From an uncultured Chloroflexota bacterium (GTDB lineage: Bacteria > Chloroflexota > Limnocylindria > Limnocylindrales > CSP1-4): a DNA stretch of 64,000 bases. Position numbers and translations under genes: made by a program. Where the stretch lies: NCBI GenBank assembly GCA_903822495.1, contig CAIJPD010000066.1:62001-126000 (forward strand). The letters are read 5' to 3'. This document shows positions 29,096 to 64,000 of the stretch, piece by piece (within the stretch, counting starts at the first letter, position 1; each line of letters starts with the position of its first letter). The notes below the pieces were generated by a model. It ran no database searches. It was not told the DNA's origin and saw only the letters and a list, made by a program, of their open reading frames with translations.

Positions 29096-30511
29096 CTACG
29101 AGCGCGGACCCTCGGGGCGCGGCCGCGAGTAGCGCGGGATGTATTTGCCGTAGCCCTCGCGGCCCACGATCTTCCCGTGCTCCATCACCACCTCGCCGCG
29201 CACGATGGTGTGGGTGGGCCAGCCGGTGACCTCCCAGCCGTCGTACAGGCCCCAGTCGGCGAACGACTGCATGTACTCCGGGCTGACCGTCATCTTGCGG
29301 TCGATGTCCACGATGGCGAAGTCCGCGTCCGAGCCCACCTGGATGGTGCCCTTCTCGGGGTAGAGGCCCCAGACCCGGGCATTGTTGGTGGACAGCACCC
29401 AGGCGAGCTTCTCCAGCGAGATGCGACCCTTGTGGTAGCCCTCGCTGAGCATGATGGGCAGGAGCATCCCGGAGCCCGGGAAGCCCGGGACGGCCGTCCA
29501 GATGTCCTCCTGGACCTTGTCGGCGAGCGGCGTGATGGTGGAATGGTCCGAACCCACGCACGAGATGGCGCCGTTGCGGATCCCCTCCCAGAGCGCCTCC
29601 TGGCTCTCCAGGTCGCGGAGCGGGGGATTGACCTTGCCCAGCCGGCCTACCCTGTCGTTGTCGTACTTGGTCAGGACCAGGTAGTGCGGGCAGGTCTCGG
29701 CGATGACGTCCACGCCCTGGGCCTGCGCCTCGCGGACCCACTGCACGCCGCGCCCGATCGTCATGTGGACGATGTACAGGCGGCTGCCGGTCTCCTTGGC
29801 GTACCAGATGGCCCGCCGGGTGGCCTCCTCCTCCGCGATGTCGGGGCGGGCGTCCGTCCACGCCTTGAGGTCGTCCCGGCCGGCGGCGATGTACTCGCCC
29901 TTGAGCTTGTGGATGATGGTCATGTTCTCGGCGTGGACCATCATCATGGCGGGGTAGCCCACCTCCTTGATGACCCGCAGGCCCTCCAGGACCTGGCCGT
30001 CGTCCATGGCGCTGATCCCGAAGACGCTCGCCTCGTCCTGGGTGTAGGCCATGTAGAACTTGTACGAGCTGATCCCCAGCCTGGCCATCTCGGGGATCTC
30101 GCGGATCTGCGCCGTGCTGCCCAGCACGGCCGAGAACGCCACATCGATGGTGGCGTACTTGTCGACCGCCTCCTTGCACCACGGGAAGTGCTCGAGGAAG
30201 GAGAGCTGGTTGTCCTCGCGGTTGAGGAGGGTGGGGATGATCGTGGTCACCCCGCCGATCGCCGCGGACTTCGACTCGGTCCTGAGGTTGATGTCGAACT
30301 TGTTGGAGAACGTCTGCAGGTGGATGTGCGGATCGATGATCCCGGGGAAGACGTGGTGTCCGCCCGCGTCGAGCGTCCGGGCCGCGGACGGCATCGACTC
30401 CTGCTCACCCAGGGCGACGATCTTCCCGTCCTTGACGGCGATCGACTGCTCGCGGATGCCATGCTCGCTGACGACCTTGCCGCCCTTGATGACGAGATCG
30501 GCCTGGCTCAT
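29096..30511 (-). CDS. Hydantoinase/dihydropyrimidinase-family cyclic amidohydrolase
   Basis: A 471-residue amidohydrolase-superfamily enzyme opening a cyclic amide such as hydantoin, dihydropyrimidine or allantoin. All binuclear metal ligands are visible: His62 and His64 (DPHIH), the carboxylated Lys151 (SSYKFYM), His193 (VHAEN), His249 (IVHM) and Asp322 (GSDHS). The beta-sandwich flank (DLVIKGGKVV) is intact. Its ATG overlaps the TGA of the UbiD gene (ATGA), so ring opening would follow decarboxylation in the same operon. Substrate-loop residues were not compared, so the subclass is open. Confidence 0.93.
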   Translation of the reverse strand: MSQADLVIKGGKVVSEHGIREQSIAVKDGKIVALGEQESMPSAARTLDAGGHHVFPGIIDPHIHLQTFSNKFDINLRTESKSAAIGGVTTIIPTLLNREDNQLSFLEHFPWCKEAVDKYATIDVAFSAVLGSTAQIREIPEMARLGISSYKFYMAYTQDEASVFGISAMDDGQVLEGLRVIKEVGYPAMMMVHAENMTIIHKLKGEYIAAGRDDLKAWTDARPDIAEEEATRRAIWYAKETGSRLYIVHMTIGRGVQWVREAQAQGVDVIAETCPHYLVLTKYDNDRVGRLGKVNPPLRDLESQEALWEGIRNGAISCVGSDHSTITPLADKVQEDIWTAVPGFPGSGMLLPIMLSEGYHKGRISLEKLAWVLSTNNARVWGLYPEKGTIQVGSDADFAIVDIDRKMTVSPEYMQSFADWGLYDGWEVTGWPTHTIVRGEVVMEHGKIVGREGYGKYIPRYSRPRPEGPRS

Positions 30512-31932
30512 CGGGTGCGCTCCTCCAGGTACTGGGCGAGGTCGATCCGGTCGGCGCCCACGGTGGACGCCTCCGTGAAGCCGTTGCGCTGCTCCTCGGT
30601 CAGGTCGCTCCGGATCGTGGCGTCCATGAGCAGCTTGGAGTTGGGATACTCGCGGTGGAAGCTGGACGGGTCGTACGACGCGCCCTTGGCCGCCGGGATC
30701 ACCAGGATCCGCTGATCGCGGGTGATGGGGTCCACCACCTGGAAGCGGCGGGCCAGGGCGCCCAGGACCGCCTCGTCGGAGTAGATGTCGACGTCGTCGT
30801 CGACCGCGATGATCAGCTTGATCTGGGGCACCGCGCCCAGCGCGGCCAGCATCACGTTCATCTGCTCGCCGCGCTCGCGTCCCTCCACCGTGGGTCGCTT
30901 CTTCATGGCGATGTAGCAGTGGAAGCCGTAGCCGCTGGCGGGGACGTGCACGCCGGTGATCCCGCGCGACGCCTGGCGGGTGGCCCGCAGGATGGCGACC
31001 TCGTGGCAGACCGCGGCCATGTTGGTCGCGTCGGGGTGGCCGGAGAAGGCCAGCTGCAGGATGGGGTTGCGCCGGTGCGTGATCGCCGAGACCTCCGTCA
31101 TGGGCCCCTGCTTGACCCGGCTGTACGAGCGCGACATGTCGGCGAAGGGCGCCTCCGGGTAGCGCCCGCCGGGCATGATCCGGGCCTCGATGACCACCTC
31201 GGCCTCGGCCGGGACCTCCAGGTCGAGCGTCCTGGCCCGGACCAGCTCCACGGGGCGGCCCAGGAGGCCGCCGGCCAGGGCCAGCTCGTCGGTGCCGGTG
31301 GGGGCGGAGTACGAGGCGGCCAGGGCGAGCAACGGATGGACGCCGGGGAGGATGGCGACCTCCAGGGGCACGCCTCGCTCCTCGGCCTTCTTGAACAGGT
31401 CGCTGATGTTGGCGATGGACGTCAGCGATGGGACGAACGTCCGCGGCCCGTGCTGCATGTAGCGGTAGACGCCCATGTTCCGGCGGCCGGTCTCGGGATC
31501 CCTGGCGATGGTCACGCCCAGCGAGACATACGGCGCGGCGTCCCGTTCGTGGTGGGTGACCAGCGGGATCCGGCCCAGGGTGGCGTCGTCGCCCAGCAGG
31601 ACCACCTCCTGGGACGGCGCGGCGGGACCGCCGGAAACGAGGATGGGGTCGATCGGGGACTCCAGGCGCGCGGCCAGAGTCTCCGTCACCCGGTCCGGCG
31701 CGCAGCCCAGGAACGCGGCGATCTTGGACCGGGTGGCAAACAGGTTGCCGGCGATGGCCCAGCCGGGGAAGCCTTGCACGGCATCGAACCGGACGGCGGG
31801 GAAGCGCCCGTCGCGCTCGAGGCGGTCGAGGACGGCGGTCACCTCCCAGGCGCGATCCACCGGGCGCGCGACCGTCTCCAGGTCGCCGGCGGCGTCGAGG
31901 AGATCGAGGGCGGCGCGCAGGTCGTCGGCCAT
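30508..31932 (-). CDS. UbiD-family prenyl-FMN decarboxylase with altered active-site Glu
   Basis: A 474-residue (de)carboxylase expected to use prenylated FMN made by UbiX. Asn152 and Arg157 (NMGVYR) match the cofactor-binding residues of the family. The usual EGPFGEFTGYY motif reads PEAPFADMSRSYS: the first Glu (Glu260) is kept but the second, the proton-shuttling Glu, is Asp265, and the following aromatic pair is lost. This is a divergent subfamily. It lies between the 2Fe-2S subunit of a molybdenum hydroxylase and the hydantoinase, implying decarboxylation of a ring-hydroxylated intermediate. UbiX is encoded nearby at 38602. Confidence 0.92.
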   Translation of the reverse strand: MADDLRAALDLLDAAGDLETVARPVDRAWEVTAVLDRLERDGRFPAVRFDAVQGFPGWAIAGNLFATRSKIAAFLGCAPDRVTETLAARLESPIDPILVSGGPAAPSQEVVLLGDDATLGRIPLVTHHERDAAPYVSLGVTIARDPETGRRNMGVYRYMQHGPRTFVPSLTSIANISDLFKKAEERGVPLEVAILPGVHPLLALAASYSAPTGTDELALAGGLLGRPVELVRARTLDLEVPAEAEVVIEARIMPGGRYPEAPFADMSRSYSRVKQGPMTEVSAITHRRNPILQLAFSGHPDATNMAAVCHEVAILRATRQASRGITGVHVPASGYGFHCYIAMKKRPTVEGRERGEQMNVMLAALGAVPQIKLIIAVDDDVDIYSDEAVLGALARRFQVVDPITRDQRILVIPAAKGASYDPSSFHREYPNSKLLMDATIRSDLTEEQRNGFTEASTVGADRIDLAQYLEERTR

Positions 31933-31997
31933 GGGGGAGTGGGCTCCGCTGCGGTGTGGAGGGTGGCGCTGGCGGGTTCGGTTCGGTGCGCGGGTGG

Positions 31998-32528
31998 TCA
32001 GCCGGCCACGTCGTCGGCCCGCAGGCCCGTGATGGACGCCGACGGGGCCGATGGCTCGCCGCGCAGGACGCGGGCGGCGTCCTGGATGCTCTCCAGGATG
32101 AAGTGGTAGCCGGTGCAGCGGCACAGGTTGCCCGAGATACCGTGCCGGATGTCGTCCTCCGTGGGATCCGGGTTGGCGTCCAGCAGCTGCTTCGCCGAGA
32201 GGATCATCCCGGGGGTGCAGTAGCCGCACTGCAGGCCCTGGTTGGCGATGAATGCCTGCTGGATGGGGTGGAGGTCGTCCGGGGAGGTGTACAGGCCCTC
32301 CACGGTGAGGACGTCGGCGCCGTCCGCGTCGGCCGCCAGCACGCAGCACGACTTCACCGTCCGGCCGTCGAGCATGACGGTGCAGGCGCCGCAGTTGCCG
32401 GTCCCGCATCCGATGTGCGTGCCGGTCAGGCGGAGCTGGTCGCGGAGCATGTCCGCGAGGATCATCCGCGAGTCCACCTCGACGGTCCGCGCCCGGCCGT
32501 TGACGGTGAGCTTGATGGTGGTCTGCAT
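31998..32528 (-). CDS. Molybdenum hydroxylase [2Fe-2S] subunit, second set
   Basis: A 176-residue small subunit with both clusters: Cys41/46/49/61 (CGTGNCGACT, KSCC) and Cys101/104/136/138 (CGYCTPGM, CRCTGY). It is third of the large/FAD/small set on the minus strand, 58 bp after the FAD subunit, with AGGAG before its ATG. A C-terminal extension of about 30 residues (SAPSASITG) is longer than in the copy at 19916. Confidence 0.95.
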   Translation of the reverse strand: MQTTIKLTVNGRARTVEVDSRMILADMLRDQLRLTGTHIGCGTGNCGACTVMLDGRTVKSCCVLAADADGADVLTVEGLYTSPDDLHPIQQAFIANQGLQCGYCTPGMILSAKQLLDANPDPTEDDIRHGISGNLCRCTGYHFILESIQDAARVLRGEPSAPSASITGLRADDVAG

Positions 32529-32586
32529 CAGGGGGGTCTCCTGCGCTCGTGGGGTCGCGCGGGTCAGGGGATCAGGGTGTCAGGGG

Positions 32587-38601: not shown

Positions 38602-39252
38602 ATGCGCCGCATCGTCGTCGGGATCTCGGGCGCCACGGGCGCCATCTACGGGATCCGGCTCCTCCAGGTCCTGCACGACCTCCCCGAGGTCGAGACGCAC
38701 CTGGTCATCACGCCCGCCGGGCGGGCCACCATCCAGCTGGAGACGGACTGGACGTCCGCCCAGGTGGAGGCCCTGGCCACCGAGACGCATCGCTACGGCG
38801 ACATCGCCGCGAAGCCGTCCTCGGGCTCGTTCAGGGTCGATGCCATGGTCGTCCTGCCGTGCTCGATGCGCACGCTGACGGGCATCGCCTACTCGATCAG
38901 CGACAACCTGCTCACCCGGGCCGCGGACGTGACGCTCAAGGAGCACCGCACGCTGATCCTGGCGCCGCGCGAGACGCCCCTCCACATCGGCCACCTCAGG
39001 GCGATGCTCCAGGTGGCGGAGATGGGCGCGATCATCGTCCCGCCGATGCCGGCCTTCTACCACCGGCCCAAGTCGCTGGAAGACATCATCGACCAGACCG
39101 TGCAGCGGATCTGCGACCAGCTGCGCCTGGAGTTGCCCGCCGACCTGTTCAAGCGCTGGCAGGGCGGGGCGGCGTCGCTGGCAGACAAGGTCCTGGAGCA
39201 CGAGGCAACCGCGGAGGTCGCCGCGGAGGCCGCGCTGATCCCCGAGGACTGA
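38602..39252 (+). CDS. ubiX: Flavin prenyltransferase
   Basis: A 216-residue UbiX/Pad1-family enzyme that joins dimethylallyl phosphate to reduced FMN, making the prenyl-FMN cofactor of UbiD decarboxylases. It has the flavodoxin-like GISGATGAIYG loop, GSFRVDAMVVLPCSMRTL with the PCSM FMN/phosphate site, and RETPLHIGHLR and PPMPAFYHRP near the C-terminus. ATG 38602 is chosen over a GTG at 38590. Its presence beside the CoxG and IclR genes and near three UbiD homologues explains how they are matured. Confidence 0.95.
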   Translation: MRRIVVGISGATGAIYGIRLLQVLHDLPEVETHLVITPAGRATIQLETDWTSAQVEALATETHRYGDIAAKPSSGSFRVDAMVVLPCSMRTLTGIAYSISDNLLTRAADVTLKEHRTLILAPRETPLHIGHLRAMLQVAEMGAIIVPPMPAFYHRPKSLEDIIDQTVQRICDQLRLELPADLFKRWQGGAASLADKVLEHEATAEVAAEAALIPED

Positions 39253-49541: not shown

Positions 49542-51706
49542 GACGCCGACCTCCGCACGTCGATGTGGACGTTCCCGAAGGCGTCCACCTCGGCCCGATG
49601 GCCCGTGGGGATGAAGATCGTGGTGTCGGCGCGGGAGATCAGCGCCGGGCCGGCCACGCGGTCCCCGGCCAGCAGCCCGGCGCCGTCGAAGATGCCTGCC
49701 TCCGCCTCGCCGTACTGGCGCGTGAAGATGCGGCGCGTGGTCTGTGGGGCGAGGGCGCCCGCCCCCGAACCGGCGCGCGTGGCGATCGTGGCGGCCGGCG
49801 GGCGGGCCGCCGGGACCAGGGCCTCCAGCCGGAAGGTGATCAGCTCGATGCGCCCCTTCCTGGGGATGGTCATCGAACCGAACCGGATGGCGTACTCGGC
49901 CTCGAAGGCGCGCCGGACCTGGCCGGCCAGGTCCTCGTCCGAGCCGCTGACCTCGATGGTCAGCTCGCTCATCTGGCCGGCGTACCGGACGTCGAGGCGG
50001 CGGCGGAGCGTGACGCCGGCACCGTCCGCCCCGGCGTGGCCGCTGGCCGCCATGTCGGCGACGGCCCGCCGCTCCAGGTCCGCGAAGATCGCGGCGGCGG
50101 TGGCCTCGGCGCCGGCGGCCTCCAGCCGGAGCGGCGACGAGCGCGCGTACGTGTACCGGATGTCCGACAGCGCGCAGCCCAGGGCCGAGAAGACCGACGA
50201 GGTGGGCGGCACGATCACGTCGCGCACGTGGAGCGGCTCCGAGTAGGCCGCGGCGTGGAGCGGCGCCGCGCCGCCGTACGCCAGCAGCGTGAACTCGCGC
50301 GGGTCCAGCCCCTCCGACACCGTGGTCTGGCGGACCAGGTCGCTCATCCGGGCGGTGACGATCTCGTAGATGCCCGCCGCGGCGGTTCGGACGTCCAGCC
50401 CCAGCGGCTCCGCGAGCCGCGCCCGGATGGCGTCCTCCGCCAGGTCCACCCGGAGCCGCGTCCGCCCGCCGAAGAAGGCCGCCGGGTCCAGCAGGCCCAG
50501 CACCACGAGGGCGTCGGTGACCGTGGGCTCGGTGCCGCCGTGGCCGTAGCAGGCTGGGCCGGGCCGGGACGAGGCCGAATTCGGCCCCACCAGCAGCCGC
50601 TCGCCGTCCGTCCAGGCGATGGACCCGCCGCCCGCGCCGATCGCGACCACCTTGGCCGCCTCCAGCTGGACGGGCGCGCCCTGCGAGACGAAGGTGGACG
50701 CCTCGGTCCGGACGACGCCGCGGTGGATCAGCCCCACGTCGAAGCTGGTGCCGCCCATGTCCGTGGTGATGACGTTCTCGAAGCCCAGCGTGACGCCCAG
50801 CTCCCGGGCCGCCACCAGCCCGCCCACCGGCCCGCCGTTGATCAGCGAGACCGCGCGTCGCGCCACGTCGCCGGGGAAGATGGTGCCGCCGGCGCAGGTC
50901 ATCAGCTGGACCGGGTAGCGCAGGCCGTCGGCCGCCAGCCCCTCGGCGAGCTGGGTGATGTAGCGGGTCATGACCGGCGCCAGGTAGGCGTTGACCACGG
51001 TGGTCATGGTCCGCTCGTACTCGCCGGAGACCGGTGAGACTTCGGACGAGAGGCTGATCTGCAGCCCGGGGACGGCCGCCTGGAGCAGCTCGCGGACGCG
51101 CTCCTCGTGGGCGGGGTTGCGGAACGACCAGAGCAGCGAGACGGCCACGGAGTCCGCGCCGGCCGCCCTCAGCGCCTCGGCGGCCGCGGCCACGTCCGCC
51201 TCGCGCAGCGGCGCCACCACCTCGCCGTCCAGGTCCATCCGCTCGCCCACGCCGAAGGTGAGCCGCCGCTCCACGTACGGGGCCGGCTTCTCGTTGCGGA
51301 CGAAGTCCAGGGCCCGCTCCAGCGGGATACCCGTGTTCCGGCCCATGGGCCCGCGGGAGATGATCATGGTGTCCTCGAACCCGCGGGTGGTCACGAGGCC
51401 CACCGTGGTCCCGGTTCGCTGGATCAGCGCGTTGGTGCCCACCGTGGTGCCGTGTGCGAAGCGGACGCAGCCGGCCAGGATCTCCGCGTCGCTGACCCCG
51501 ATTCGGGCCGCCACGTTGCGCAGGGCGTCGCGCGCGCCCACGGACGGGTCGTGCGGGGTGGAGAACGCCTTGTCGATATGGACGACACCCGCGGCGTCGA
51601 TGACGACGCAGTCGGTGAAGGTCCCGCCGGTATCGATGCCGACGACGTAGCCGCCGGCCGGGCGCGGCGCGCTCACCGGCCCCGAAGCCGAATCCGTGCT
51701 TGCCAA
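49538..51706 (-). CDS. hyuA: Hydantoinase A/oxoprolinase-family ATP-binding subunit
   Basis: A 722-residue protein of the ASKHA-like HyuA family. The phosphate-binding motifs GIDTGGTFTDCVV (about 24-36), RFAHGTTVGTNALI and ITTDMGGTSFDVGLI are intact, and GAGGGSIAW follows. It activates the substrate by ATP-dependent phosphorylation for hydrolysis or carboxylation by HyuB. The start is a TTG at 51706; an in-frame GTG at 51676 is an alternative. It lies 52 bp after the iron-ADH gene in a three-gene operon. Confidence 0.93.
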   Translation of the reverse strand: MASTDSASGPVSAPRPAGGYVVGIDTGGTFTDCVVIDAAGVVHIDKAFSTPHDPSVGARDALRNVAARIGVSDAEILAGCVRFAHGTTVGTNALIQRTGTTVGLVTTRGFEDTMIISRGPMGRNTGIPLERALDFVRNEKPAPYVERRLTFGVGERMDLDGEVVAPLREADVAAAAEALRAAGADSVAVSLLWSFRNPAHEERVRELLQAAVPGLQISLSSEVSPVSGEYERTMTTVVNAYLAPVMTRYITQLAEGLAADGLRYPVQLMTCAGGTIFPGDVARRAVSLINGGPVGGLVAARELGVTLGFENVITTDMGGTSFDVGLIHRGVVRTEASTFVSQGAPVQLEAAKVVAIGAGGGSIAWTDGERLLVGPNSASSRPGPACYGHGGTEPTVTDALVVLGLLDPAAFFGGRTRLRVDLAEDAIRARLAEPLGLDVRTAAAGIYEIVTARMSDLVRQTTVSEGLDPREFTLLAYGGAAPLHAAAYSEPLHVRDVIVPPTSSVFSALGCALSDIRYTYARSSPLRLEAAGAEATAAAIFADLERRAVADMAASGHAGADGAGVTLRRRLDVRYAGQMSELTIEVSGSDEDLAGQVRRAFEAEYAIRFGSMTIPRKGRIELITFRLEALVPAARPPAATIATRAGSGAGALAPQTTRRIFTRQYGEAEAGIFDGAGLLAGDRVAGPALISRADTTIFIPTGHRAEVDAFGNVHIDVRRSAS

Positions 51707-53907: not shown

Positions 53908-54537
53908 ATGCCTGGCTTCGGCACCACCGGCGACTACGACGAGCGAGCCGCCACCTGGGATGACGAGCCCGATCGTCGCGCACGCTCCCAGACGGTCGCG
54001 CGCCGCATCAACGACCTGGTCGGACCCACGCCCGCCACCCGGGTGCTGGAGTACGGCGCCGGGACCGGCCTGCTGGGTTTCGCCCTCAAGCCATTCGTCG
54101 GCCACATGACGCTGGCCGACATCAGCGAGGGGATGCTCGCCCAGGTCCAGAAGAAGATCGCCGCCAGCGAGATGACCGACGTCGAGTGGCGGCGGCTGGA
54201 CCTGACTACCGATCCGCTGCCGGCGGAGCGCTACGACCTGATCTGCCTCCAGTTGATCCTCCACCACATCATGGATACGGATCAGATCCTCACGGCGCTG
54301 CGCGCCTGCCTGGCCCCGGGCGGCGTGCTGGTCGTGGCCGACATGGACCTGGAGGACGGGTCTTTCCATCGCGAGGCGTACGAGGGCTACTTCGGCTTCG
54401 AGCGAGAGCCGCTGGGCGAGAAGGTGCTGGCGGCGGGCTTCGCCTCGGTCGAGTTCGACGACGTCCTCACGGTCCACAAGGTCCGTGGGGGGGTGGAGCG
54501 CGAGTACCCGATGTTCCTGATGATCGCCCGGACGTAG
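53908..54537 (+). CDS. Class I SAM-dependent methyltransferase
   Basis: A 209-residue Rossmann-fold methyltransferase. Motif I is LEYGAGTGLLGF (about 47-58), motif II ADISEGML, and the region before motif IV reads CLQLILHHI, resembling UbiE/YcgJ-type small-molecule methyltransferases. APGGVLVVADMD is post-motif III. GGAGGA precedes the ATG by 7 nt. It lies between two SDR genes, so methylation of a pathway intermediate is possible; the acceptor cannot be predicted. Confidence 0.92.
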   Translation: MPGFGTTGDYDERAATWDDEPDRRARSQTVARRINDLVGPTPATRVLEYGAGTGLLGFALKPFVGHMTLADISEGMLAQVQKKIAASEMTDVEWRRLDLTTDPLPAERYDLICLQLILHHIMDTDQILTALRACLAPGGVLVVADMDLEDGSFHREAYEGYFGFEREPLGEKVLAAGFASVEFDDVLTVHKVRGGVEREYPMFLMIART

Positions 54538-54621
54538 GGCTGAGGGGCGGGTGGTGGCCTGGGTGGCGGCAGCCCGGCACGGCGGGGCACGTCGCGCCGA
54601 GCCCGCGCGGAGGTACCCGCA

Positions 54622-55458
54622 GTGAGCGACGAGCATCCGCGGATGGGCCCCGGACGGGGGCGGCTGACGGGGAAGGTGGTGATCGTCACCGGGGCGGATT
54701 CGGGGATCGGGCGCGCCACGGCTCGCCTGTTCGCGCGCGAGGGGGCCGCCGTGGCCTGCGCGGACATCCGGCCCGCCGAGCTGGCACGCCCCGGGGACGC
54801 ACCGCGGATCGACGAGCTGATCGCTCGGGACGGGGCGGCGGGGCAGGGGAGTGGCCGGGCGGTCTACGTCGAGGCTGACGCCGGCGTGGCGGCCGAATGG
54901 ACGCGCGTGATCGAAGTCACCGAAGGCGAATTCGGCCGGGTGGACGTCCTCGTCAACAACGCCGGATTCGGGATCCGCGCGCGCCTCCACGAACTCAGCG
55001 AGGACGACTGGCACGCCGTCCTCCGGACAAACCTGGATTCCGTGTTCCACGGCGTGCGCGCGGTGCTGCCGGTGTTCGATCGCCAGGGCGGCGGGGTCAT
55101 CGTCAACAACGCCTCGTCGTTCGGCCTCCTCGCGACGGACGCCTACCCGGCCTACTGCGCGTCGAAGGCCGCGGTGGTCAACCTGACCCGCCAGCTGGCC
55201 ATCGACTACGGCCCGGCGATCCGGGTCAACTGCGTCTGCCCGGGCGCCACGCTGACGCCGCGCCTGGAGGAGCGGATCGCCGCTTCGGCGGACCCGGCCG
55301 CCACCCGCGCGCGGATGGACGACCTGGCCCGCTCACTCCGGCGGATGGCCGCTCCCGAGGAGATCGCCTACGCGATCCTGTTCCTGGCGTCGGACGAGGC
55401 GTCCTTCGTCACCGGCCACGCCCTGACCGTGGACGGCGGCCAGACGATCGACGCATAG
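54622..55458 (+). CDS. SDR-family oxidoreductase
   Basis: A 278-residue short-chain dehydrogenase with TGADSGIGRATARLF, VNNAGFG, NNASSFG and the catalytic YCASK, ending LTVDGGQTID. A stretch of about 15 extra residues at ARPGDAPRIDELIARDG distinguishes it from the other two SDRs in the window. GTG 54622 follows GCGGAGG. It converges on the LLM oxidoreductase gene across 48 bp. Confidence 0.93.
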   Translation: MSDEHPRMGPGRGRLTGKVVIVTGADSGIGRATARLFAREGAAVACADIRPAELARPGDAPRIDELIARDGAAGQGSGRAVYVEADAGVAAEWTRVIEVTEGEFGRVDVLVNNAGFGIRARLHELSEDDWHAVLRTNLDSVFHGVRAVLPVFDRQGGGVIVNNASSFGLLATDAYPAYCASKAAVVNLTRQLAIDYGPAIRVNCVCPGATLTPRLEERIAASADPAATRARMDDLARSLRRMAAPEEIAYAILFLASDEASFVTGHALTVDGGQTIDA

Positions 55459-55506
55459 CGGCCTCGGGCGCGGCGCCCCGGCGCCCCCGCGCCGGATCGG
55501 ATCGGC

Positions 55507-56529
55507 CTACCGCCAGCCCAGCGCCGGGGCCACGTACTTGAGGATGCTCTCGATGGCGTGGGCGTTGTACTCCACGCCCAGCTGGTTGGGGACCGTGAGG
55601 AGCAGCGTGTCGGCCGCCTGGATGGCCGTGTCGCCGGCCAGCTCCTTCACCAGCACGTCCGGCTCGGCCGCGTACGATCGGCCGAAGATCGCCTTCGTCT
55701 GCGCGTCGATCATCCCCACCTGGTCCTTCGCCTGGTTCCCGCGCCCAAAGTAGGCCCGGTCGCGATCGTCGACCAGCGCGAAGATGCTGCGGCTCACCGA
55801 GACGCGCGGCTCGTGCTGGTGCCCCGCGGTCGCCCAGGCGTCGCGGAAGCGCTGGATCTGCTCCGCCTGGAGGACGTGGAACGGAACACCCGCGTCCTCG
55901 GTGAGCAGCGTCGACGACATCAGGTGCATGCCCTGCTGGGCTGTCCATTCGGCCGTCGCGCGCGAGCCGGCGCCCCACCAGATCCGGTCGCGGAGGCCGG
56001 GCGAGTGCGGCTCGGGGCGGAGGAGGCCCGGCGGGTTGGGGAACATCGGCGTGGGATTGGGCCGGGCGAACCGCTCGCCCGAGAGTGCCCGGAGGAAGAC
56101 ATCGGTGTGCTGGCGGGCCATGTCGGCGTCGGTCTCGCCCTCCGGTGGCACATAGCCGAAGTACCGGAACCCGTCGATCACCTGCTCGGGCGAGCCGCGG
56201 CTGATCCCCAGCTGGAGCCGGCCGCCGGCGATCAGGTCCGCGGCGCCCGCGTCCTCGACCATGTACAGCGGGTTCTCGTAGCGCATGTCGATGACGGCGG
56301 TGCCGATCTCGATGCGCTTGGTCCGCGCGCCCACGGCGGCGAGGAGCGGGAACGGCGATGCCAGCTGCTGGGCGAAGTGGTGGACCCGGTAGTAGGCGCC
56401 GTCGCCGCCGAGGTCCTCGATCGCCTCCGCCAGCTCGATGGACTGGATGAGTGCATCCGACGCCGAGCGCACCTGGGAGTGGGGCGAGTCCGACCAGTGC
56501 CCGAACGAGAGAAAGCCGATCTTCTTCAT
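55507..56529 (-). CDS. LLM-class flavin-dependent oxidoreductase (luciferase-like)
   Basis: A 340-residue TIM-barrel protein. The N-terminal IGFLSFGHWSDSP strand, GAYYRVHHFA with the conserved His pair, the IEIGTAVIDMRYENP segment and LGISRGSPEQ phosphate loop all match bacterial-luciferase-like monooxygenases that use reduced FMN or F420. Substrate unknown. The ATG at 56529 lies 6 nt after TAGACT, so it has its own leaderless-type promoter although it follows the hydrolase by only 25 bp. Confidence 0.93.
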   Translation of the reverse strand: MKKIGFLSFGHWSDSPHSQVRSASDALIQSIELAEAIEDLGGDGAYYRVHHFAQQLASPFPLLAAVGARTKRIEIGTAVIDMRYENPLYMVEDAGAADLIAGGRLQLGISRGSPEQVIDGFRYFGYVPPEGETDADMARQHTDVFLRALSGERFARPNPTPMFPNPPGLLRPEPHSPGLRDRIWWGAGSRATAEWTAQQGMHLMSSTLLTEDAGVPFHVLQAEQIQRFRDAWATAGHQHEPRVSVSRSIFALVDDRDRAYFGRGNQAKDQVGMIDAQTKAIFGRSYAAEPDVLVKELAGDTAIQAADTLLLTVPNQLGVEYNAHAIESILKYVAPALGWR

Positions 56530-56535
56530 CCGCGG

Positions 56536-56541
56536 AGTCTA
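56536..56541 (-). promoter_or_regulatory. Leaderless-type -10 box for the LLM oxidoreductase
   Basis: TAGACT on the minus strand, 6 nt before the ATG at 56529, inside the 25-bp gap after the alpha/beta hydrolase gene. Confidence 0.5.
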
Positions 56542-56554
56542 GGTCGGACCGCGG

Positions 56555-57346
56555 CTATCCCTCCAGGAAGGGCTTCACCTCGGCGATGAACCCCGACGGG
56601 TTCTCCACGTGGACCGCGTGTCCCGTGTCGGAGACGGCGACCCAGCGTCCGTTCGGCAGCGCCTCCGCCATTCGCTGCGCGACGTCATCGGGGACGGTGG
56701 GGGAGCCCGCGCCCTTCACGATCAGCGTGGGCTGGGCCAGCCGGGCCAGCGTGCCCCAGTGGTCCTCGGTCCGGAAGTCCCAGCGGCGCAGGAAGACGGG
56801 ATCGATCTTCTTGACGAAGCCGCCACCTTCGGCCGGGCGGTACGTCCGGTCCGCCAGGTTGGCGATGGCCGCGTCCGAGCCACGCGGGCTCCGCTTGCGC
56901 TCCGCCTCCAGCGCGGCCTCCCAGGTGTCGAACTGGACCTGCCGCGGCGCGACCTCATCGGGCTTCTGTGCAGACGAGGGCGGGATGTCCACCACGACGA
57001 GCCGCCTCACCTGGGCGCCCAGCCGGTCGGCCAGCGAGATGGCGATCAGCCCGCCCCAGCTGTGGCCGACCACGTCGACCTCGCCAAGGTCCAGCTTAGC
57101 GATCACCCCCGCGATGTCCGCCGCCGCGTCCGCCGAGCCGTACGTCCCGTCGGGGGACCACTGGCTGTCGCCGTGGCCGCGCAGGTCCGTGGCCACCACC
57201 CGCCGTCCCAAGGCACCGCGAAGGTCGCGCCAGACCATCCCGGCCGATGCGATTCCGTGGATGGCCACGATCGGGCGGCCCTCGCCGCGGAAGTCGATGT
57301 AGTGGATCCGCAGCCCGTTGACCGTGAGGAAGCCGTCCTTCGGCAT
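56555..57346 (-). CDS. Alpha/beta-hydrolase-fold hydrolase
   Basis: A 263-residue hydrolase. The oxyanion HGIAS follows strand 3, the nucleophile is Ser96 in GHSWGG, and the catalytic His is in SDTGHAVHVENP near 241. LRGHGDS is the usual post-strand-4 motif. It probably cleaves an ester, lactone or C-C bond. AGGGAGGG lies 5 nt before the ATG. It is 37 bp after the transporter gene, likely the same transcript. Confidence 0.93.
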   Translation of the reverse strand: MPKDGFLTVNGLRIHYIDFRGEGRPIVAIHGIASAGMVWRDLRGALGRRVVATDLRGHGDSQWSPDGTYGSADAAADIAGVIAKLDLGEVDVVGHSWGGLIAISLADRLGAQVRRLVVVDIPPSSAQKPDEVAPRQVQFDTWEAALEAERKRSPRGSDAAIANLADRTYRPAEGGGFVKKIDPVFLRRWDFRTEDHWGTLARLAQPTLIVKGAGSPTVPDDVAQRMAEALPNGRWVAVSDTGHAVHVENPSGFIAEVKPFLEG

Positions 57347-57383
57347 GGAACCCTCCCTGTGCGCTGAGTGGAGCCCGCTGTTG

Positions 57384-58259
57384 TCAGCCCCCGAAGATGC
57401 TGATGACCACGATCCCGGCGAAGACGGTCACGACCCCGATGACCACGCGCCGCGTCAGCGTCTCGAGGTGGCCCAGGAAGAGTCGCGAGCCAAGGATGAC
57501 GAAGATCGGCGACGAGGTGTAGAGGGGGACGACGACGGCCACGCTCCCCGAGTTGAGCGCCGTGATGATGGCGTAGTAGGCAAAGCCCTGGAAGGCCCCG
57601 GTCAGCAGGAACCAGCGGAACGCCCGCAGGTTGGGGACCCGGGAGCGCGTGACCAGGAAGGCCACGATGGCAAAGATCGTCATGGCGACGCCGGCGACCG
57701 CCCCGCCGATCATGGGGTGCGCAACCTCGTGCACCCCAAGCTTGCGTACGACGTTGTCAACGGCAAAGAAGAGCATGGCCGCGATCGGGAACGCCATCGC
57801 CGGCCGCCAGAACGCCGCCCGGCCCCTGGCGCCGGCCTTGCCGGAGAGCAGCAGCACGCCGCCCACGACCATCGCCGTCCCGATGACTTCGGCTGGACCG
57901 GGGAACTCGCCCAGGAACGGGATCGCGAGGAGGATCGCCGGGACTGGGGAGGCGTTCTTCACCGCCGAGGCGGTTGACGGCCCCACCTTGAGGCCGCTGA
58001 CCAGCATCAGGCCGGCCGCGCAGGCGTACAGGATCCCGTCGGCGGCGAAGAGACCGGTGGCCCTGGCCGTCAGCTGGAACGGCTGCGGTGCCACGATCAT
58101 CGCCTGGATGATGATCAGCAGGGCGCTGGTCGAGAAGACCACCAGCCACGACTGGGGCACCGTGCCGTACTGCAGCCCGATGCGGCCGCAGACCTGGTTC
58201 GCGGCGAGGAGGACGGCGGCGATCAGCGCGACCACGACCGTCGTCAGATGACTGTCCAC
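57384..58259 (-). CDS. DMT/EamA-family transporter
   Basis: A 291-residue membrane protein with about 10 helices in two EamA repeats: the first ends GLKVGPSTASAVKNASPVPAILLAIPFLGE (two motifs) and the second ITALNSGSVAVVVPLYTSSPIFVILGSRLFLGH (two motifs). Members export amino acids or other small metabolites. GTG 58259 is chosen, just below GGGGAGGG; the upstream frame is Arg/Pro-rich. It is the first gene of the transporter/hydrolase/LLM run. Confidence 0.9.
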   Translation of the reverse strand: MDSHLTTVVVALIAAVLLAANQVCGRIGLQYGTVPQSWLVVFSTSALLIIIQAMIVAPQPFQLTARATGLFAADGILYACAAGLMLVSGLKVGPSTASAVKNASPVPAILLAIPFLGEFPGPAEVIGTAMVVGGVLLLSGKAGARGRAAFWRPAMAFPIAAMLFFAVDNVVRKLGVHEVAHPMIGGAVAGVAMTIFAIVAFLVTRSRVPNLRAFRWFLLTGAFQGFAYYAIITALNSGSVAVVVPLYTSSPIFVILGSRLFLGHLETLTRRVVIGVVTVFAGIVVISIFGG

Positions 58260-58315
58260 CAACCCTCCCCGGGGACGTCTGCCTGGGCACGGCGGAGTGT
58301 GCCACAGCCCCGGAG

Positions 58316-58339
58316 CCATGATCGCGCGGACTATCATGG
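58316..58339 (+). promoter_or_regulatory. Inverted repeat over a -10 box in the divergent promoter region
   Basis: CCATGAT (58316-58322) and ATCATGG (58333-58339) are perfect inverted arms with a 10-nt spacer. TATCAT (58332-58337) overlaps the right arm and is a plausible -10 for the isochorismatase gene. A dimeric regulator bound here would affect transcription in both directions. Confidence 0.45.
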
Positions 58340-58387
58340 CCGCCAACCGCGGCGTGGCCGCCGGCCCCTGAGCGCGAGAGGTGTCCG

Positions 58388-59020
58388 ATGCCTGCCCTGA
58401 CACTGGCCGAGAAGATCGACCCGGCCAGCACCGTGCTGCTCGTGGTCGACATGCAGAACGACTACATCCACCCCAAGGGAAACCTGGCCAGCAAGGGCGT
58501 CGACACCAGCTCCGTCATCGAGATGGTCCCCACGCTCCAGGCCCTGCTCGCGACCGCGCGTGAGGCCGGCGTCCACGTGATCCACACCCGGAACTGGCAT
58601 CGTCCCGCGACGGACAGCTCCGCGTGGGTGGATCGCCTGGTCCGGATGGGCGGCTCGCAGGACCACCGGGCCGCCATCGCCGGCTCGTGGGGCTCGGAGT
58701 GGTACGAGGTGGAGCCCCTCCCCGGCGAAGAGGTGATTAACAAGTTCCGCTACGACGCGTTTCTGGGCACCAACCTGGAGTTCCTGCTCCGGGCCCGTGG
58801 GATCCGGACGGTCGTGATCTGCGGGACGGCGACCAACGTGTGCGTCGAGAGCACGGCGCGGGCCGCCCACATGCGCGACTTCCATCTGGTCATGGTCGGC
58901 GACGCGTGCGGCACGGCGAGCGCCGCGGCCCAGGACGCGACGCTGGCGAACATCGCGTCGAACTTCGGCGAGGTGGCCAGCACGGCGCGGGTGCGTGGCA
59001 TCTGGGGCGCCACGGCGTAG
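58388..59020 (+). CDS. Isochorismatase-family cysteine hydrolase
   Basis: A 210-residue amidase-type protein. The catalytic triad appears as Asp in LLVVDMQNDY, Lys in INKFRYDAF and Cys in GTATNVCVEST. It hydrolyses amides (nicotinamide, ureidoacrylate, carbamoyl compounds) in known relatives. It is divergent from the transporter/hydrolase/LLM operon. Amidase chemistry fits a window that also carries a hydantoinase and HyuAB. Confidence 0.93.
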   Translation: MPALTLAEKIDPASTVLLVVDMQNDYIHPKGNLASKGVDTSSVIEMVPTLQALLATAREAGVHVIHTRNWHRPATDSSAWVDRLVRMGGSQDHRAAIAGSWGSEWYEVEPLPGEEVINKFRYDAFLGTNLEFLLRARGIRTVVICGTATNVCVESTARAAHMRDFHLVMVGDACGTASAAAQDATLANIASNFGEVASTARVRGIWGATA

Positions 59021-59206
59021 GCGCCGCGGCGTAGGCCCCGCGGGGATCGGCGCGGCGATCGGCGGGGTCCGACCGGCCCGGCCCGCGGCCCGGCCCGGGT
59101 GGTATCGTGCCCGCAGATTCGGGAACCCGTTGCCAACATGCGGAAACGTGGGCCTGAAACGCGAGACGCGGATGATCAGCGAAGAACGTAGCGGAGCGTG
59201 CCTGGG

Positions 59207-60601
59207 ATGCCGAAGGATCTGCGCAGCTTTCTGAAGCGCCTCGAGGAGAACGCGCCGGACGAGTTTGTCCGTGTCGAGCGCGAGGTGGACCCGGTCTACG
59301 AGCTGCCGGCGGTCATCCGCCGCCTCCAGGCGGATCGTCGCGACCCCGCCGTCCTGTTCGAGCACGTCAAGGGCAGCCGCATTCGCGCCATCACCAACGT
59401 GCTGGGGAGCACCCGCCTCCTGGCCGAGGCGCTGGAGACCACCCCGGACAAGCTGACCCAGACCTACATCGACCGCGAGGACAAGCGCCACCCGGTGCAG
59501 ATCCTCGGCCAGGGGCCGGTGCAGGAGGTGACGATCACCGGCGACGACATCAACCTGTATGACCTGCCCATCGTCACCAACTGCGAGAAGGACTCCGGCG
59601 CCTTCATCTCGGGTGGCGTGAGCACCGTCAGGGACCCGGAGACGGGGATCCACAACTCCGGCATCTACCGGATGATGGTCCACGACAAGAAGACACTCGG
59701 CATGAGCTACGAGAAGCACACCCACATCGGGCGCGTGCATCGCCACGCGGAGGCGCGCGGCGAGGCCCTCGAGTGCGTCGTCTGGGTGGGCCACCACCCG
59801 GCCACGCTGCTGGGCTCGCAGTCCAAGATCCCCTTCGGCGAGGACGAGTACGAGGTCATGGGCGGCCTCCTGGAGGAGCCCCTGGCCGTGGTCAAGGGCA
59901 AGACCGTTGACATCCTGATCCCCGCCTACGCGGAGGTGGCCATCGAGGGCCGCATCCTCCCCGGCGCCCGCCTCCCCGAGGGCCCGTACGGCGAGTTCAC
60001 CTGGTACTACGGGCTGGAGCGCTCGTCGCCGATCATGGAGGTGACCGCGATCACCTTCCGCGCCGACGCCATCTACCACCACCTGTTTGCCGCCCACCCG
60101 GAGCACAACCTGACCGGCCGGCTGGGCCGCGAGTCCGTGCTCTACAAGCGGGTGAAGCAGTCCGTGCCGTCCGTCCAGGCGGTCCGGATGCCCATGTCGG
60201 GCATCTGCCGCTTCACGGCCTACGTCCAGATCAAGAAGGAGTTCGACGGGGAGGGCAAGCTGGCCGCGCTGGCGGCGCTGGCGGCGGACCCGTTCGTCAA
60301 GCTGGCGGTGATCGTCGACGACGACATCGACATCGACAACGACTCGGACGTCCTCTGGGCGATCGCCACCCGGATCCAGCCCGACAAGGCGACCTTCTTC
60401 GTCCAGGACTCCGCCGTGAGCCGCCTGGACCCCGCCAGCTACTCCATCTGGAGCCGCTGGGAGAAGGACACCATGAACACCAAGTGGGCGATCGACGCGA
60501 CCATGCCGATCGAGGCTCCGTTCGAGGAGCGGGCCGACGTGCCGCGCGAGATCTGGGAGAAGATCGACCTCTCCCAGTACATCGTCCCCACCAAGCGCTG
60601 A
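59207..60601 (+). CDS. UbiD-family prenyl-FMN decarboxylase (first of pair)
   Basis: A 464-residue enzyme with the family start KDLRSFLKRLEE, cofactor residues Asn150 and Arg155 (NSGIYR) and the intact catalytic LPEGPYGEF motif with Glu258 and Glu263. It probably decarboxylates or carboxylates an aromatic or unsaturated acid. ATG 59207 is preferred to GTG 59198. It is followed by a 135-residue protein and a second UbiD in the same direction; all need UbiX (38602). Confidence 0.94.
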   Translation: MPKDLRSFLKRLEENAPDEFVRVEREVDPVYELPAVIRRLQADRRDPAVLFEHVKGSRIRAITNVLGSTRLLAEALETTPDKLTQTYIDREDKRHPVQILGQGPVQEVTITGDDINLYDLPIVTNCEKDSGAFISGGVSTVRDPETGIHNSGIYRMMVHDKKTLGMSYEKHTHIGRVHRHAEARGEALECVVWVGHHPATLLGSQSKIPFGEDEYEVMGGLLEEPLAVVKGKTVDILIPAYAEVAIEGRILPGARLPEGPYGEFTWYYGLERSSPIMEVTAITFRADAIYHHLFAAHPEHNLTGRLGRESVLYKRVKQSVPSVQAVRMPMSGICRFTAYVQIKKEFDGEGKLAALAALAADPFVKLAVIVDDDIDIDNDSDVLWAIATRIQPDKATFFVQDSAVSRLDPASYSIWSRWEKDTMNTKWAIDATMPIEAPFEERADVPREIWEKIDLSQYIVPTKR

Positions 60602-60632
60602 GCGCCGAACCGAAGCAGCGAGGACCCAACCG

Positions 60633-61040
60633 GTGAACGACGCTGAGCAGATCAAGAAGAACACCCTGTGGACCGCGGTGGTCAACATCGACCTCCAGCT
60701 CTACAAGGCCAGCGTGTACAAGCTCCGCTGGGGCACGCCGGCGGCCGGCATCGACATGGCCCTGCCGTGCTACGACGAGGCGCTCCAGGTGCTGGGGGAG
60801 AACGACTGGCCCGGCAAGATGGCCGAGCAGGCCCGCACGCTGGCCGCGCGCATCGAGAAGTTCAAGGTGACCCTCAACGCGCGCGACGTGACGACCGCGT
60901 CGTCCGATCTCACGCGCCTGGTGTACGCGTTTGAAGACCTCCGGGCCTCCGTCCGCCACTTCCCGGCCGAGGCGCCTGCCAGCGCCACCGGGATGCGGAC
61001 TGCAATGGGGCTGCCCACGGAGCGCCTCTCCGGGATGTAG
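60633..61040 (+). CDS. Small helical protein between two UbiD genes
   Basis: A 135-residue protein, not recognised. It is predicted mainly alpha-helical (IKKNTLWTAVVNIDLQLYKASV, split as two helices; MAEQARTLAARIEKFKVTL; SSDLTRLVYAFEDLRASV) with no signal or metal motif. The GTG follows AGCGAGGA, 31 bp after the first UbiD stop and 58 bp before the next. It is not the small zinc-finger D subunit of hydroxybenzoate decarboxylases. It may be a third subunit or adaptor for the UbiD pair. Confidence 0.8.
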   Translation: MNDAEQIKKNTLWTAVVNIDLQLYKASVYKLRWGTPAAGIDMALPCYDEALQVLGENDWPGKMAEQARTLAARIEKFKVTLNARDVTTASSDLTRLVYAFEDLRASVRHFPAEAPASATGMRTAMGLPTERLSGM

Positions 61041-61098
61041 GTTTGGGGTCCACGCGACCGGGGGCGCCCCGGCCGCGCCGATCCCCAGGAGTCGCCGC

Positions 61099-62445
61099 GT
61101 GCCCTACCGCGACCTTCGCCAGTTCCTGAATCGCCTGAAGGCCGAAGGCCAGCTGGCCCGCGTCCGCCGGCCCGTCAAGACGGAGTTCGAGATCGCGGCC
61201 GGCATCCGGAAGATGTCGGACACCAGGGGCCCGGCGCTCTGGTTCGAATCCGTCGTTGGCTCGACGATGCCCGTCGTGGGCTCGCTCTTCGCCGACCGGG
61301 CCAAGGCGATGCTGGCGCTGGACGTCGCCACGCCGGCCGAAGGCAACGAGAAGTTCCTTCGGGGCCTCCATTCGCCCATCCCGCCGCGCGAGGTAGGGAC
61401 GGGGGAGTGCCAGGAGGTGGTCCTGACCGGCGAGGACGTCGACCTCTTCGCCCTGCCCCTGCCCGTCTACTCCGGCAAGGACGGCGGCGCCTACGTGACG
61501 GTCGCGCTGGAGATCAGCCGCGACCCCGAGGACGGGCTGGCCAACGCCTCGGTCTACCGCGTGATGCGGCTGGACCGGAACCACCTGGCCGTCATGTCCC
61601 ACGCCTTCCAGGGGCTGGGCACCCACATGGCCAAGGCCGAACGGCTGGGCGTCCCGCTGGACGTGGCGATCGTCAACGGCTGCGACCCGGTCCTGCTCTA
61701 CGCGGCGCAGGCCAAGGTGCCGGCCGGGTTCGACGAGCTGGGGATCGCGGGCGGGATCAACGGGCAGCCGGTGGACGTGGTGCGCGGCAAGACCGTGGAC
61801 CTGCTGGTGCCGGCCACGGCCGAGATCGTCATCGAGGGTCGGATCCTGCCGGGCGTCCGCGCCATGGAGGGCCCGTTCGGCGAGTTCACCGGCTACTACG
61901 GCCCGGCGGAGGAGAACCAGGTGATGGAGGTGACCGCCATCACCCATCGCCGGGACCCCATCTTCCTGGCCGGCCTGACCGGCGTCCCCAACACGGACAA
62001 CCACGTCCTCAAGTCGTTCGCGTACGAGAGCACCCTCTACGAGGACCTGCGCAAGACGTTCCCCGAGGTGACCGCGGTCTCGTTTCCGGACTGGGGCGGG
62101 ACGCAGTACGTGGCGGTGGTGGCGCTCCGCCAGCGCTACAAGGGCCAGGCGCGCCACCTGATCCTCAACGCGCTGGGGCACGCCGCGCGGCCCAAGTGGG
62201 TGATCGTGGTGGACGAGGACATCGACGTCCACGACACCGAGCGGGTCATGTGGGCGATGGTCACGCGCGGCCAGCCGGCCGACGACATCATCACGGTGGC
62301 CGGGGTCGCGGGCGGACCGCTGGACCCCTCGGCGCCGGAGAAGGAAGTGATCAGCGTCATGGGCTTCGACGCGACACGCCCCTTTGGCGTGCGCTTCCCC
62401 GAGGTGGTGGAGGTCCCGGGCGCCGACGACTTCACGATCGACTGA
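61099..62445 (+). CDS. UbiD-family prenyl-FMN decarboxylase (second of pair)
   Basis: A 448-residue UbiD. YRDLRQFLNRLKAEGQL is the usual N-terminus; Asn149 and Arg154 (NASVYR) and Glu257/Glu262 in MEGPFGEFTGYYG complete the site. GTG 61099 is chosen because AGGAG lies 8 nt upstream. It differs clearly from the first copy, so the two could form a hetero-oligomer or act on successive substrates. Confidence 0.94.
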   Translation: MPYRDLRQFLNRLKAEGQLARVRRPVKTEFEIAAGIRKMSDTRGPALWFESVVGSTMPVVGSLFADRAKAMLALDVATPAEGNEKFLRGLHSPIPPREVGTGECQEVVLTGEDVDLFALPLPVYSGKDGGAYVTVALEISRDPEDGLANASVYRVMRLDRNHLAVMSHAFQGLGTHMAKAERLGVPLDVAIVNGCDPVLLYAAQAKVPAGFDELGIAGGINGQPVDVVRGKTVDLLVPATAEIVIEGRILPGVRAMEGPFGEFTGYYGPAEENQVMEVTAITHRRDPIFLAGLTGVPNTDNHVLKSFAYESTLYEDLRKTFPEVTAVSFPDWGGTQYVAVVALRQRYKGQARHLILNALGHAARPKWVIVVDEDIDVHDTERVMWAMVTRGQPADDIITVAGVAGGPLDPSAPEKEVISVMGFDATRPFGVRFPEVVEVPGADDFTID

Positions 62446-62520
62446 GAGCGGGTGAGGTCACGCCGTGCGATCACGGCGCCATCGCACCGGGTCGGCATTG
62501 ACGCTGGCCCCACGACCGCA

Positions 62521-62550
62521 TAGTCTGTGCGTACGGTGTTAGTACGCACA
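62521..62550 (+). promoter_or_regulatory. Toxin-antitoxin operator: 9-bp-arm palindrome on a -10 box
   Basis: TGTGCGTAC (62526-62534) and GTACGCACA (62542-62550) are perfect arms with a 7-nt spacer. TAGTCT (62521-62526) shares one base with the left arm and fits a -10. The antitoxin ATG is 12 nt below. Antitoxin binding here would repress the operon. Confidence 0.7.
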
Positions 62551-62562
62551 CAGGTCGTCCGA

Positions 62563-62847
62563 ATGTTGCCGAACAAGCCACAGCCGGCCAAGAGCGAGCG
62601 GATCTCGGTTCGGGTGTCGCCGACGCAGCGGGAGCTGCTCGGCGCGGCCAGCCGTGTTTCGGCCGTCACGCTGACTGACTTCATCCTGGAGGCGGCGACG
62701 GCGCACGCCGAGGACGTCCTCGCCGATCGACGCTCCTTCCCTGTCTCGGACGAGGCGTATCGGGCCTTCGTCGAGCTGCTGGACCGGCCGGTGCAGTCCA
62801 AGCCGCGGCTGCGGGAGCTGCTCTCGAAACCGTCCGCGTTCGACTAG
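62563..62847 (+). CDS. DUF1778-family antitoxin (TacA-like)
   Basis: A 94-residue ribbon-helix-helix antitoxin. SERISVRVSPTQRELLGAAS, then VTLTDFILEAATAHAEDVL are the DUF1778 strand and helices (about 8-50). The C-terminal RPVQSKPRLRELLSKP segment is the part that neutralises the GNAT toxin. ATG 62563 is preferred to a GTG at 62527, which lies inside the operator. The toxin gene starts 6 nt after its stop. Confidence 0.92.
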   Translation: MLPNKPQPAKSERISVRVSPTQRELLGAASRVSAVTLTDFILEAATAHAEDVLADRRSFPVSDEAYRAFVELLDRPVQSKPRLRELLSKPSAFD

Positions 62848-62853
62848 CTCGCC

Positions 62854-63372
62854 GTGGGCTCGTTCACGCCGCCGGAGCTGCTGACCGCCCGACACGACCG
62901 CAGCCAGTTCGACTGCGGCTCCACGGCCCAGACCCAGTGGCTCCGCCAGCACGCGCTCTTCGCGATGGGCCAGGACACCGCCCGTGTCTACGTGACGTGC
63001 CCGCTGGGTGAACCCCACGTCGTGGGCTACTACTCGCTCACGGTGGGCTCGGTGGGCTCGGTGGGCCCGGCGATCGCGCCCGCACGGATGACCAAGGGCG
63101 CCGGCCGGTATCCGCTCCCGGTGATCATCCTCACGCGCCTTGGGGTGGACGTCTCGGTGCAGGGTCGCGGCATCGGCCGCTCGCTCGTCGTGGACGCGCT
63201 TCGGAGGGTGAGCCAGGCGGCGGATGCGGTGGGGGTCCGGGCCCTGCTGATCCACGCCGAGAACCCAAGGGCGAGGGCGTTCTACGAAGGGCTGGCCGAG
63301 TTCGAACCCGCGCCATCGGACCCGTTGCACCTGTTCCTGTCGTTGAAGGACATTCGGACGGCCCTCGGCTGA
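62854..63372 (+). CDS. GNAT-family acetyltransferase toxin (TacT-like)
   Basis: A 172-residue GNAT protein paired with a DUF1778 antitoxin. The acetyl-CoA loop is VQGRGIGRSLVVDAL (Q-x-x-G-x-G/A), and the C-terminal ENPRARAFYEGLAEF motif is typical. Relatives acetylate the amino group of charged tRNAs and stop translation. A small GSVGSVG duplication follows YYSLTV. The start is GTG 62854, just after the antitoxin stop. Confidence 0.93.
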   Translation: MGSFTPPELLTARHDRSQFDCGSTAQTQWLRQHALFAMGQDTARVYVTCPLGEPHVVGYYSLTVGSVGSVGPAIAPARMTKGAGRYPLPVIILTRLGVDVSVQGRGIGRSLVVDALRRVSQAADAVGVRALLIHAENPRARAFYEGLAEFEPAPSDPLHLFLSLKDIRTALG

Positions 63373-63397
63373 CGAGCTCAAGTTGGAGACGATTGGC

Positions 63398-64000
63398 TCA
63401 GGACTGGGCGCGCTCCTGCGCGGCGCGCGCGGTAGCGAGCGCGGTTCGGGCGCCCTGGTCCACGAAGAACCCGTCGGCGCCCGTGCCCAGGAAGCGGAAG
63501 CCCATCCGGAGGTAGGGTTCGAACGTCGCCGGGTCGTAGAGGAGGACCCCCGGCGCCTTCCCGTGGGCGCGGCAGGCATCCACCACGCCGCGGATCGCGT
63601 TGCGGAAGGCGAGTGCCTCCAGGTCGCCGGGGACGCCAAGCGAGTGCGACAGGTCGGTGGGCCCCACGAAGAGGACGTCGACGCCGTCGATGGCGGCGAC
63701 CGCGTCAATCTCGCGGACCAGCGACGCTGACTCGACCTGGACGATCCCGAGGACGTCGCGGTTCAGGTCCCGCACGCCGGCGTGCGACATGCGACCCAGC
63801 CCGGCTCCGCGCGTCCGGAGGGCCACGCCGCGCACCCCGTCCGGCGGGTAGCGGAGGAACGAGACCACCTCCCGGGCCTGCTCTGCGGTCTCGAGGCGGG
63901 GGACCATGATCCCTTCGGCGCCGAGGTCCAGCGCGCGCCCGATGCGGAGGCGCTCCCCGGACTGCACCCGCACCAGCGCCGCGGCCCCGCTGACCTCCAC
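63398..64000 (-). CDS. HpcH/HpaI aldolase/citrate lyase-family protein, C-terminal part
   Basis: The right window edge truncates the gene; 201 codons are visible. GAEGIMVPRLETAEQA is the metal/phosphate region and DVLFVGPTDLSHSLGVPG is the signature of HpaI-type class II aldolases, which cleave 4-hydroxy-2-oxo acids to pyruvate and an aldehyde. The metal-binding VQVES Glu is present. The true start lies beyond 64000. It fits the end of an aromatic meta-cleavage-like route, but its neighbours are outside the window. Confidence 0.9.
   Translation of the reverse strand: MEVSGAAALVRVQSGERLRIGRALDLGAEGIMVPRLETAEQAREVVSFLRYPPDGVRGVALRTRGAGLGRMSHAGVRDLNRDVLGIVQVESASLVREIDAVAAIDGVDVLFVGPTDLSHSLGVPGDLEALAFRNAIRGVVDACRAHGKAPGVLLYDPATFEPYLRMGFRFLGTGADGFFVDQGARTALATARAAQERAQS

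Follow-up and report, generated by a model that had tools for sequence, protein, structure and literature searches.

Between two UbiD genes of an uncultured Chloroflexota bacterium lies a gene for a 135-residue orphan protein, P135, which may be a lineage-specific accessory protein of one or both of these enzymes, UbiD-A and UbiD-B, acting on the loading or maturation of their cofactor or on their conformation. We favour this reading tentatively, as a possibility somewhat short of even. It draws on the layout of the locus and its preservation in a sister genome, the selective constraint on P135, a confidently predicted fold, the presence of UbiX and the precedent of small partners in other UbiD systems. 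It is weakened because the adjacency is confined to one genus and inherited, because other UbiDs in the same genome and relatives elsewhere have no P135, and because the predicted fold suggests no flavin site and no homologue has a known function. Positions are those of the window, the whole stretch of 64,000 nucleotides that was analyzed.

The locus and its neighbors

UbiD-A (59207..60601, forward strand; 464 residues, similar in size to HmfF), P135 (60633..61040, forward strand; GTG start codon) and UbiD-B (61099..62445, forward strand; 448 residues, GTG start codon) are co-directional, with gaps of 31 nt between UbiD-A and P135 and 58 nt between P135 and UbiD-B. Shine-Dalgarno-like stretches precede P135 (GAGGA) and UbiD-B (AGGAG). 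A promoter and terminator scan gave no hits, with no terminator-like site between the three genes, and Rfam gave no match within positions 54000-64000 of the window. We infer that the genes are co-transcribed, that P135 makes physical contact with a UbiD and that it has an accessory role.

In the only other genome of the genus (G004), the order and spacing of UbiD-A, P135 and UbiD-B are unchanged, and the two genomes are collinear for about 7.8 kb around the locus. The DNA just downstream is rearranged. Directly 3′ of UbiD-B in the window are genes for a TacA-type antitoxin and a GNAT acetyltransferase (62563-63372), a TacAT-like toxin-antitoxin pair; the sister genome has two more genes, one SnoaL-like and one for an FAD oxidoreductase (L057 4032-6426), interposed between UbiD-B and this pair, which points to an indel of about 2.4 kb. 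That the three genes have kept their arrangement despite such a change next door argues for an accessory role of P135.

The genes 5′ of UbiD-A encode an isochorismatase-family hydrolase, an alpha/beta hydrolase and a luciferase-like monooxygenase, a set reminiscent of pyrimidine or pyridine breakdown; all fall far short of the curated thresholds of RutB, RutD and comparable models. Among them, the isochorismatase-family hydrolase (58388..59020, forward strand; PF00857) lies 186 nt 5′ of UbiD-A and keeps its order in the sister genome. The RutB and biuret amidohydrolase models match it, but well below cut-off. This hydrolase likely belongs to the same pathway as the UbiDs, and its membership in the operon is uncertain. 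Elsewhere in the window, a third UbiD (30508..31932, reverse strand), recognized by PF01977 and associated domains, a TIGR00148 score just above cut-off and its position in the tree, has no small partner. It is flanked by a dihydropyrimidinase-like amidohydrolase on one side and a molybdenum hydroxylase cluster of three genes on the other, and this region (29096-35900) is likely a heteroaromatic catabolic operon. A hydantoinase A/B-type gene pair, N-methylhydantoinase or oxoprolinase-like, was recognized by eye from translations at 47259-51676.

Given such surroundings, P135 could serve the same pathway without acting on the UbiDs, for example by binding a substrate or intermediate, or by partnering another enzyme of the cluster. 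The isochorismatase-family hydrolase, luciferase-like monooxygenase, alpha/beta hydrolase, molybdenum hydroxylases and hydantoinase-type genes of the region are compatible with this, and genes in one operon often have a pathway in common without physical contact between their products. However, P135 is flanked by two UbiDs rather than adjoining another enzyme, and no motif or fold match points to a ligand or enzyme function. We regard a pathway role of this kind as unlikely, although it deserves serious consideration.

Two diverged UbiD enzymes

In both UbiD-A and UbiD-B, the N-terminal (PF20695), rift-related (PF01977) and C-terminal (PF20696) domains each score far above cut-off, as TIGR00148 scores above its own. 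The proteins are 36% identical across 447 columns. Metal-site and Glu-Arg-Glu residues are retained as N150, R155, E214, E258 and E263 in UbiD-A and as N149, R154, E213, E257 and E262 in UbiD-B; we presume these roles, including those of Asn and Glu at the metal site, from what is generally established for UbiD enzymes and from alignment to E. coli UbiD. Conserved domains and catalytic residues predict that both proteins are prFMN-dependent (de)carboxylases. A preliminary description of the locus had called them diverged, intact enzymes at ordinary operon spacing, which the domains, residues, gaps, gene positions and separate clades bear out.

The best solved relative of both enzymes is 6h6v (E 2e-83 for UbiD-A, both about 1e-83 to 1e-85), which we take to be HmfF, the 2,5-furandicarboxylate decarboxylase. 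The relationship is only distant, so the HmfF substrate cannot be transferred to UbiD-A or UbiD-B. As the substrate, a heteroaromatic carboxylate is no more than a sensible guess.

A tree of 43 UbiD proteins places UbiD-A and UbiD-B in separate, well-supported clades, and they are therefore not tandem duplicates. UbiD-A clusters with C55, another UbiD of the same genome (46% identity; support 100/97), which adjoins an AMP-binding ligase gene. UbiD-B groups with singleton UbiDs of a distant Chloroflexota genome (50% identity; support 97/96). In other genomes the nearest relatives of either enzyme have neither P135 nor a comparable UbiD pair alongside, on contigs some of which are short; the contig of the locus closest to UbiD-B stops about 480 bp beyond the gene. 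The lack of P135 beside these relatives argues against an obligatory two-UbiD complex.

The preliminary description had suggested that the two UbiDs and P135 could assemble into a single hetero-oligomeric (de)carboxylase of novel make-up, in which P135 would be a structural subunit. The strict three-gene arrangement in both genomes of the genus fits such an assembly, and enzymes with several UbiDs have precedent. Phenylphosphate and phenylphosphoamidate carboxylase have two UbiD-like subunits (PMC7500099), and phenylphosphate carboxylase (PpcABCD), like the P135 locus, combines these with small proteins. The naphthalene carboxylase cluster of culture N47, for anaerobic carboxylation of polycyclic aromatic hydrocarbons, has four UbiDs in nine genes, with a proposed complex of about 750 kDa (PMC12016498); here we compare by description only, the likeness being several UbiD genes clustered with others. 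But UbiD-A and UbiD-B fall in different clades, and neither scores as a phenylphosphate carboxylase alpha or beta subunit: TIGR02723 and TIGR02724 give 104 and 133 bits for UbiD-A and 148 and 193 bits for UbiD-B, far below the cut-offs of 565 and 469. No Ppc-like small subunit was recognized at the P135 locus. In addition, the closest relatives of the two enzymes in other genomes were not found as such a pair, and each enzyme has a complete active-site set, as expected of independent homo-oligomers. A single hetero-oligomer thus seems improbable. One further locus (L096 5072-8097, G268:C10) holds two adjacent, slightly overlapping UbiD genes of different clades with no small gene between them, so neighboring UbiDs alone need not mean a complex.

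The genome of the window carries 12 UbiD genes, and 101 of the 107 family genomes have none; this accumulation is striking and lineage-specific. The sister genome also has 12 by match count, three of the matches being pieces of one gene, and a third genome (G080) has about seven. UbiD matches split over several frames at G004:C4:98672-99269 and G080:C57:14223-14824 probably reflect frameshifts, pseudogenes or mistakes in the assembly. Around the UbiDs of the window's genome lie molybdenum hydroxylases, amidohydrolases, an AMP-binding ligase, ThDP-enzyme-like genes and ABC transporters. A separate conserved operon of two small genes followed by a UbiD occurs in three genomes of two genera (L048 5164-7798 in G000:C56, L059 and L060). 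Its second small gene matches a ThDP-binding C-terminal domain, and the pair resembles a split enzyme of the sulfopyruvate decarboxylase type. None of the ten UbiDs outside the P135 locus has a P135-type partner. Together with the P135-free relatives elsewhere, they indicate that UbiDs of these clades evidently manage without P135.

P135 as gene and protein

P135 is, by its sequence features, a real gene under purifying selection and not a chance open reading frame. A gene caller that relies on codon use and was trained on this region gave it a good score, and its third-position GC (0.95) is like that of its neighbors (0.96-0.97). Between the two genomes of the genus the gene differs at 13 synonymous and 2 non-synonymous positions with no indels, giving a dN/dS of 0.046, a rough ratio because the substitutions are few. 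In the same comparison UbiD-A has a dN/dS of 0.021 and UbiD-B of 0.114, and a constraint on P135 like that on the enzymes favors an accessory role.

No match to P135 was found in Pfam (best 0.18), NCBIfam, PHROGs (best 0.19), PADLOC or the sequences of the PDB (best 0.4). The protein is of 15 kDa, with one Cys, a GRAVY of -0.21 and a pI of 6.6, and looks soluble. AlphaFold2, working from two sequences only, predicts four helices (residues 3-32, 36-56, 61-82 and 86-108; pLDDT 84, pTM 0.74) that would form a bundle, followed by a low-confidence tail (about 110-135) predicted to be disordered. Foldseek searches of the PDB and BFVD found nothing at E <= 0.001, the best matches being generic four-helix bundles (E 0.27 and 0.18, respectively). 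The modeled fold suggests no flavin site. An RxxxxH string of the HEPN type (R104-H109) is taken as chance because there is neither a HEPN match nor a nucleotidyltransferase partner.

The window's genome (3.6 Mb, 90% complete) has a single P135 gene, and a phmmer search of its called genes with filters off found no paralogue beside any other UbiD. The sole other significant match is in the sister genome, 98-99% identical and between the same two UbiD genes. There are no homologues outside the genus among 107 family genomes, 177 genomes of the class and 400 phylum-wide genomes, and no relatives among plasmids and viral contigs. A pattern scan of genome contigs, which reaches close relatives only, recovered this locus again, in a metagenome-assembled genome of Chloroflexi, isolate RH-23may17-645. 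Weak tblastn and HMM matches elsewhere (E 0.005-0.05) look like chance: those aligned were short or out of frame, some running across stops, and one (L005) lies in the wrong frame of a different gene. As far as seen, P135 is restricted to its genus.

The preliminary description had called the middle protein unrecognized and helical; the searches and the model agree with it on both counts. As a check it had named whether homologues of the protein always lie beside UbiD genes. The only other copy does, between the same UbiDs; since the two genomes are collinear here, the adjacency reflects common descent and is no independent co-occurrence. Homologues mostly away from UbiD genes, which the description had named as counting against its proposal, were looked for in the family, class and phylum-wide genomes and not seen.

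So narrow a distribution would also fit a gene that is young, confined to this lineage and unrelated in function, such as one captured from a mobile element, and that is in the operon by chance. All the surveys beyond the genus (the 177 class genomes, the 400 phylum-wide genomes, the contig scan, plasmids and viral contigs) are consistent with this, and UbiD-B is directly followed by the genes for the TacA-like antitoxin and the GNAT protein. On the other hand, P135 shares the codon use and third-position GC of its neighbors, is under strong purifying selection and has unchanged spacing in both genomes. A chance passenger is, in our judgment, rather unlikely.

Known UbiD partners and a possible role for P135

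UbiD operons often carry small proteins, which several aromatic acid (de)carboxylases require; VdcD, PpcGamma and LpdD are such proteins and have no sequence similarity to one another (PMC8379154). A further partner with no relatives would be in keeping with this pattern. The VdcCD vanillate decarboxylase resembles the P135 locus in pairing a UbiD (VdcC) with a small operon partner unrelated to other UbiD partners. However, Vdc has one UbiD where the P135 operon has two, and VdcD, an integral subunit with an allosteric role, is a zinc-ribbon protein of less than 10 kDa with four Cys, in contrast to the larger, all-helical P135 with its one. The VdcD family model (NF041205) matches nothing in the window's genome, P135 included, and family model, Cys count and fold all rule out P135 as a VdcD.

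LpdD, a chaperone that binds prFMNH2 and has been proposed to help load the cofactor in its UbiD/UbiX system, is a dimer of mixed alpha/beta fold whose six-stranded beta-sheets resemble those of Pba3/4 (PMC10865409). P135 shares with it the setting, a small protein among UbiD and UbiX, and is ruled out as an LpdD by its predicted all-helical bundle. PhdC is a prFMN maturase with an HpaC-like flavin reductase fold (PMC13040415) and, like P135, is encoded by the third gene of a UbiD operon. P135 lacks that fold and, being all-helical and 135 residues long, is no PhdC. HmfF, a homo-hexamer (PMC7976604) of 448 residues and thus of similar length to UbiD-A and UbiD-B, has no P135-like small partner.

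LpdD and PhdC both act on the cofactor, and this precedent, with the absence of VdcD and the presence of UbiX, lends weight to an accessory role for P135. A UbiX flavin prenyltransferase gene (38602..39252, forward strand) lies 20 kb from the three genes; TIGR00421 and NF004685 score above cut-off and PF02441 matches. Its product is likely the source of prFMN for the UbiDs.

By analogy with these systems, P135 is a plausible new helper. We propose that the three-gene operon of this catabolic Chloroflexota genus would yield two separate prFMN-dependent (de)carboxylases and a soluble P135, with the cofactor supplied by the distant UbiX. P135 might bind the apo-enzyme, or the prFMNH2 made by UbiX, and aid cofactor loading or oxidative maturation. 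Alternatively, it could be a permanently bound allosteric small subunit. We thus tentatively read P135 as an accessory protein with a new fold, a counterpart of VdcD or LpdD yet related to neither. A bolder version, in which P135 founds an all-helical class of UbiD partner that either binds both UbiDs into one hetero-oligomer or hands prFMN to both, strikes us as distinctly improbable.

Many UbiDs are inactive when made outside their host, and the known helpers (VdcD, LpdD, PhdC and the Ppc small subunit) are few and mutually unrelated. If P135 is a helper, an all-helical protein would lengthen this list and give biotechnology a tool for UbiD activation. With most genomes of its family devoid of UbiD, a freshwater Chloroflexota genus that carries 12 of them is a good source for new aromatic and heteroaromatic decarboxylases.
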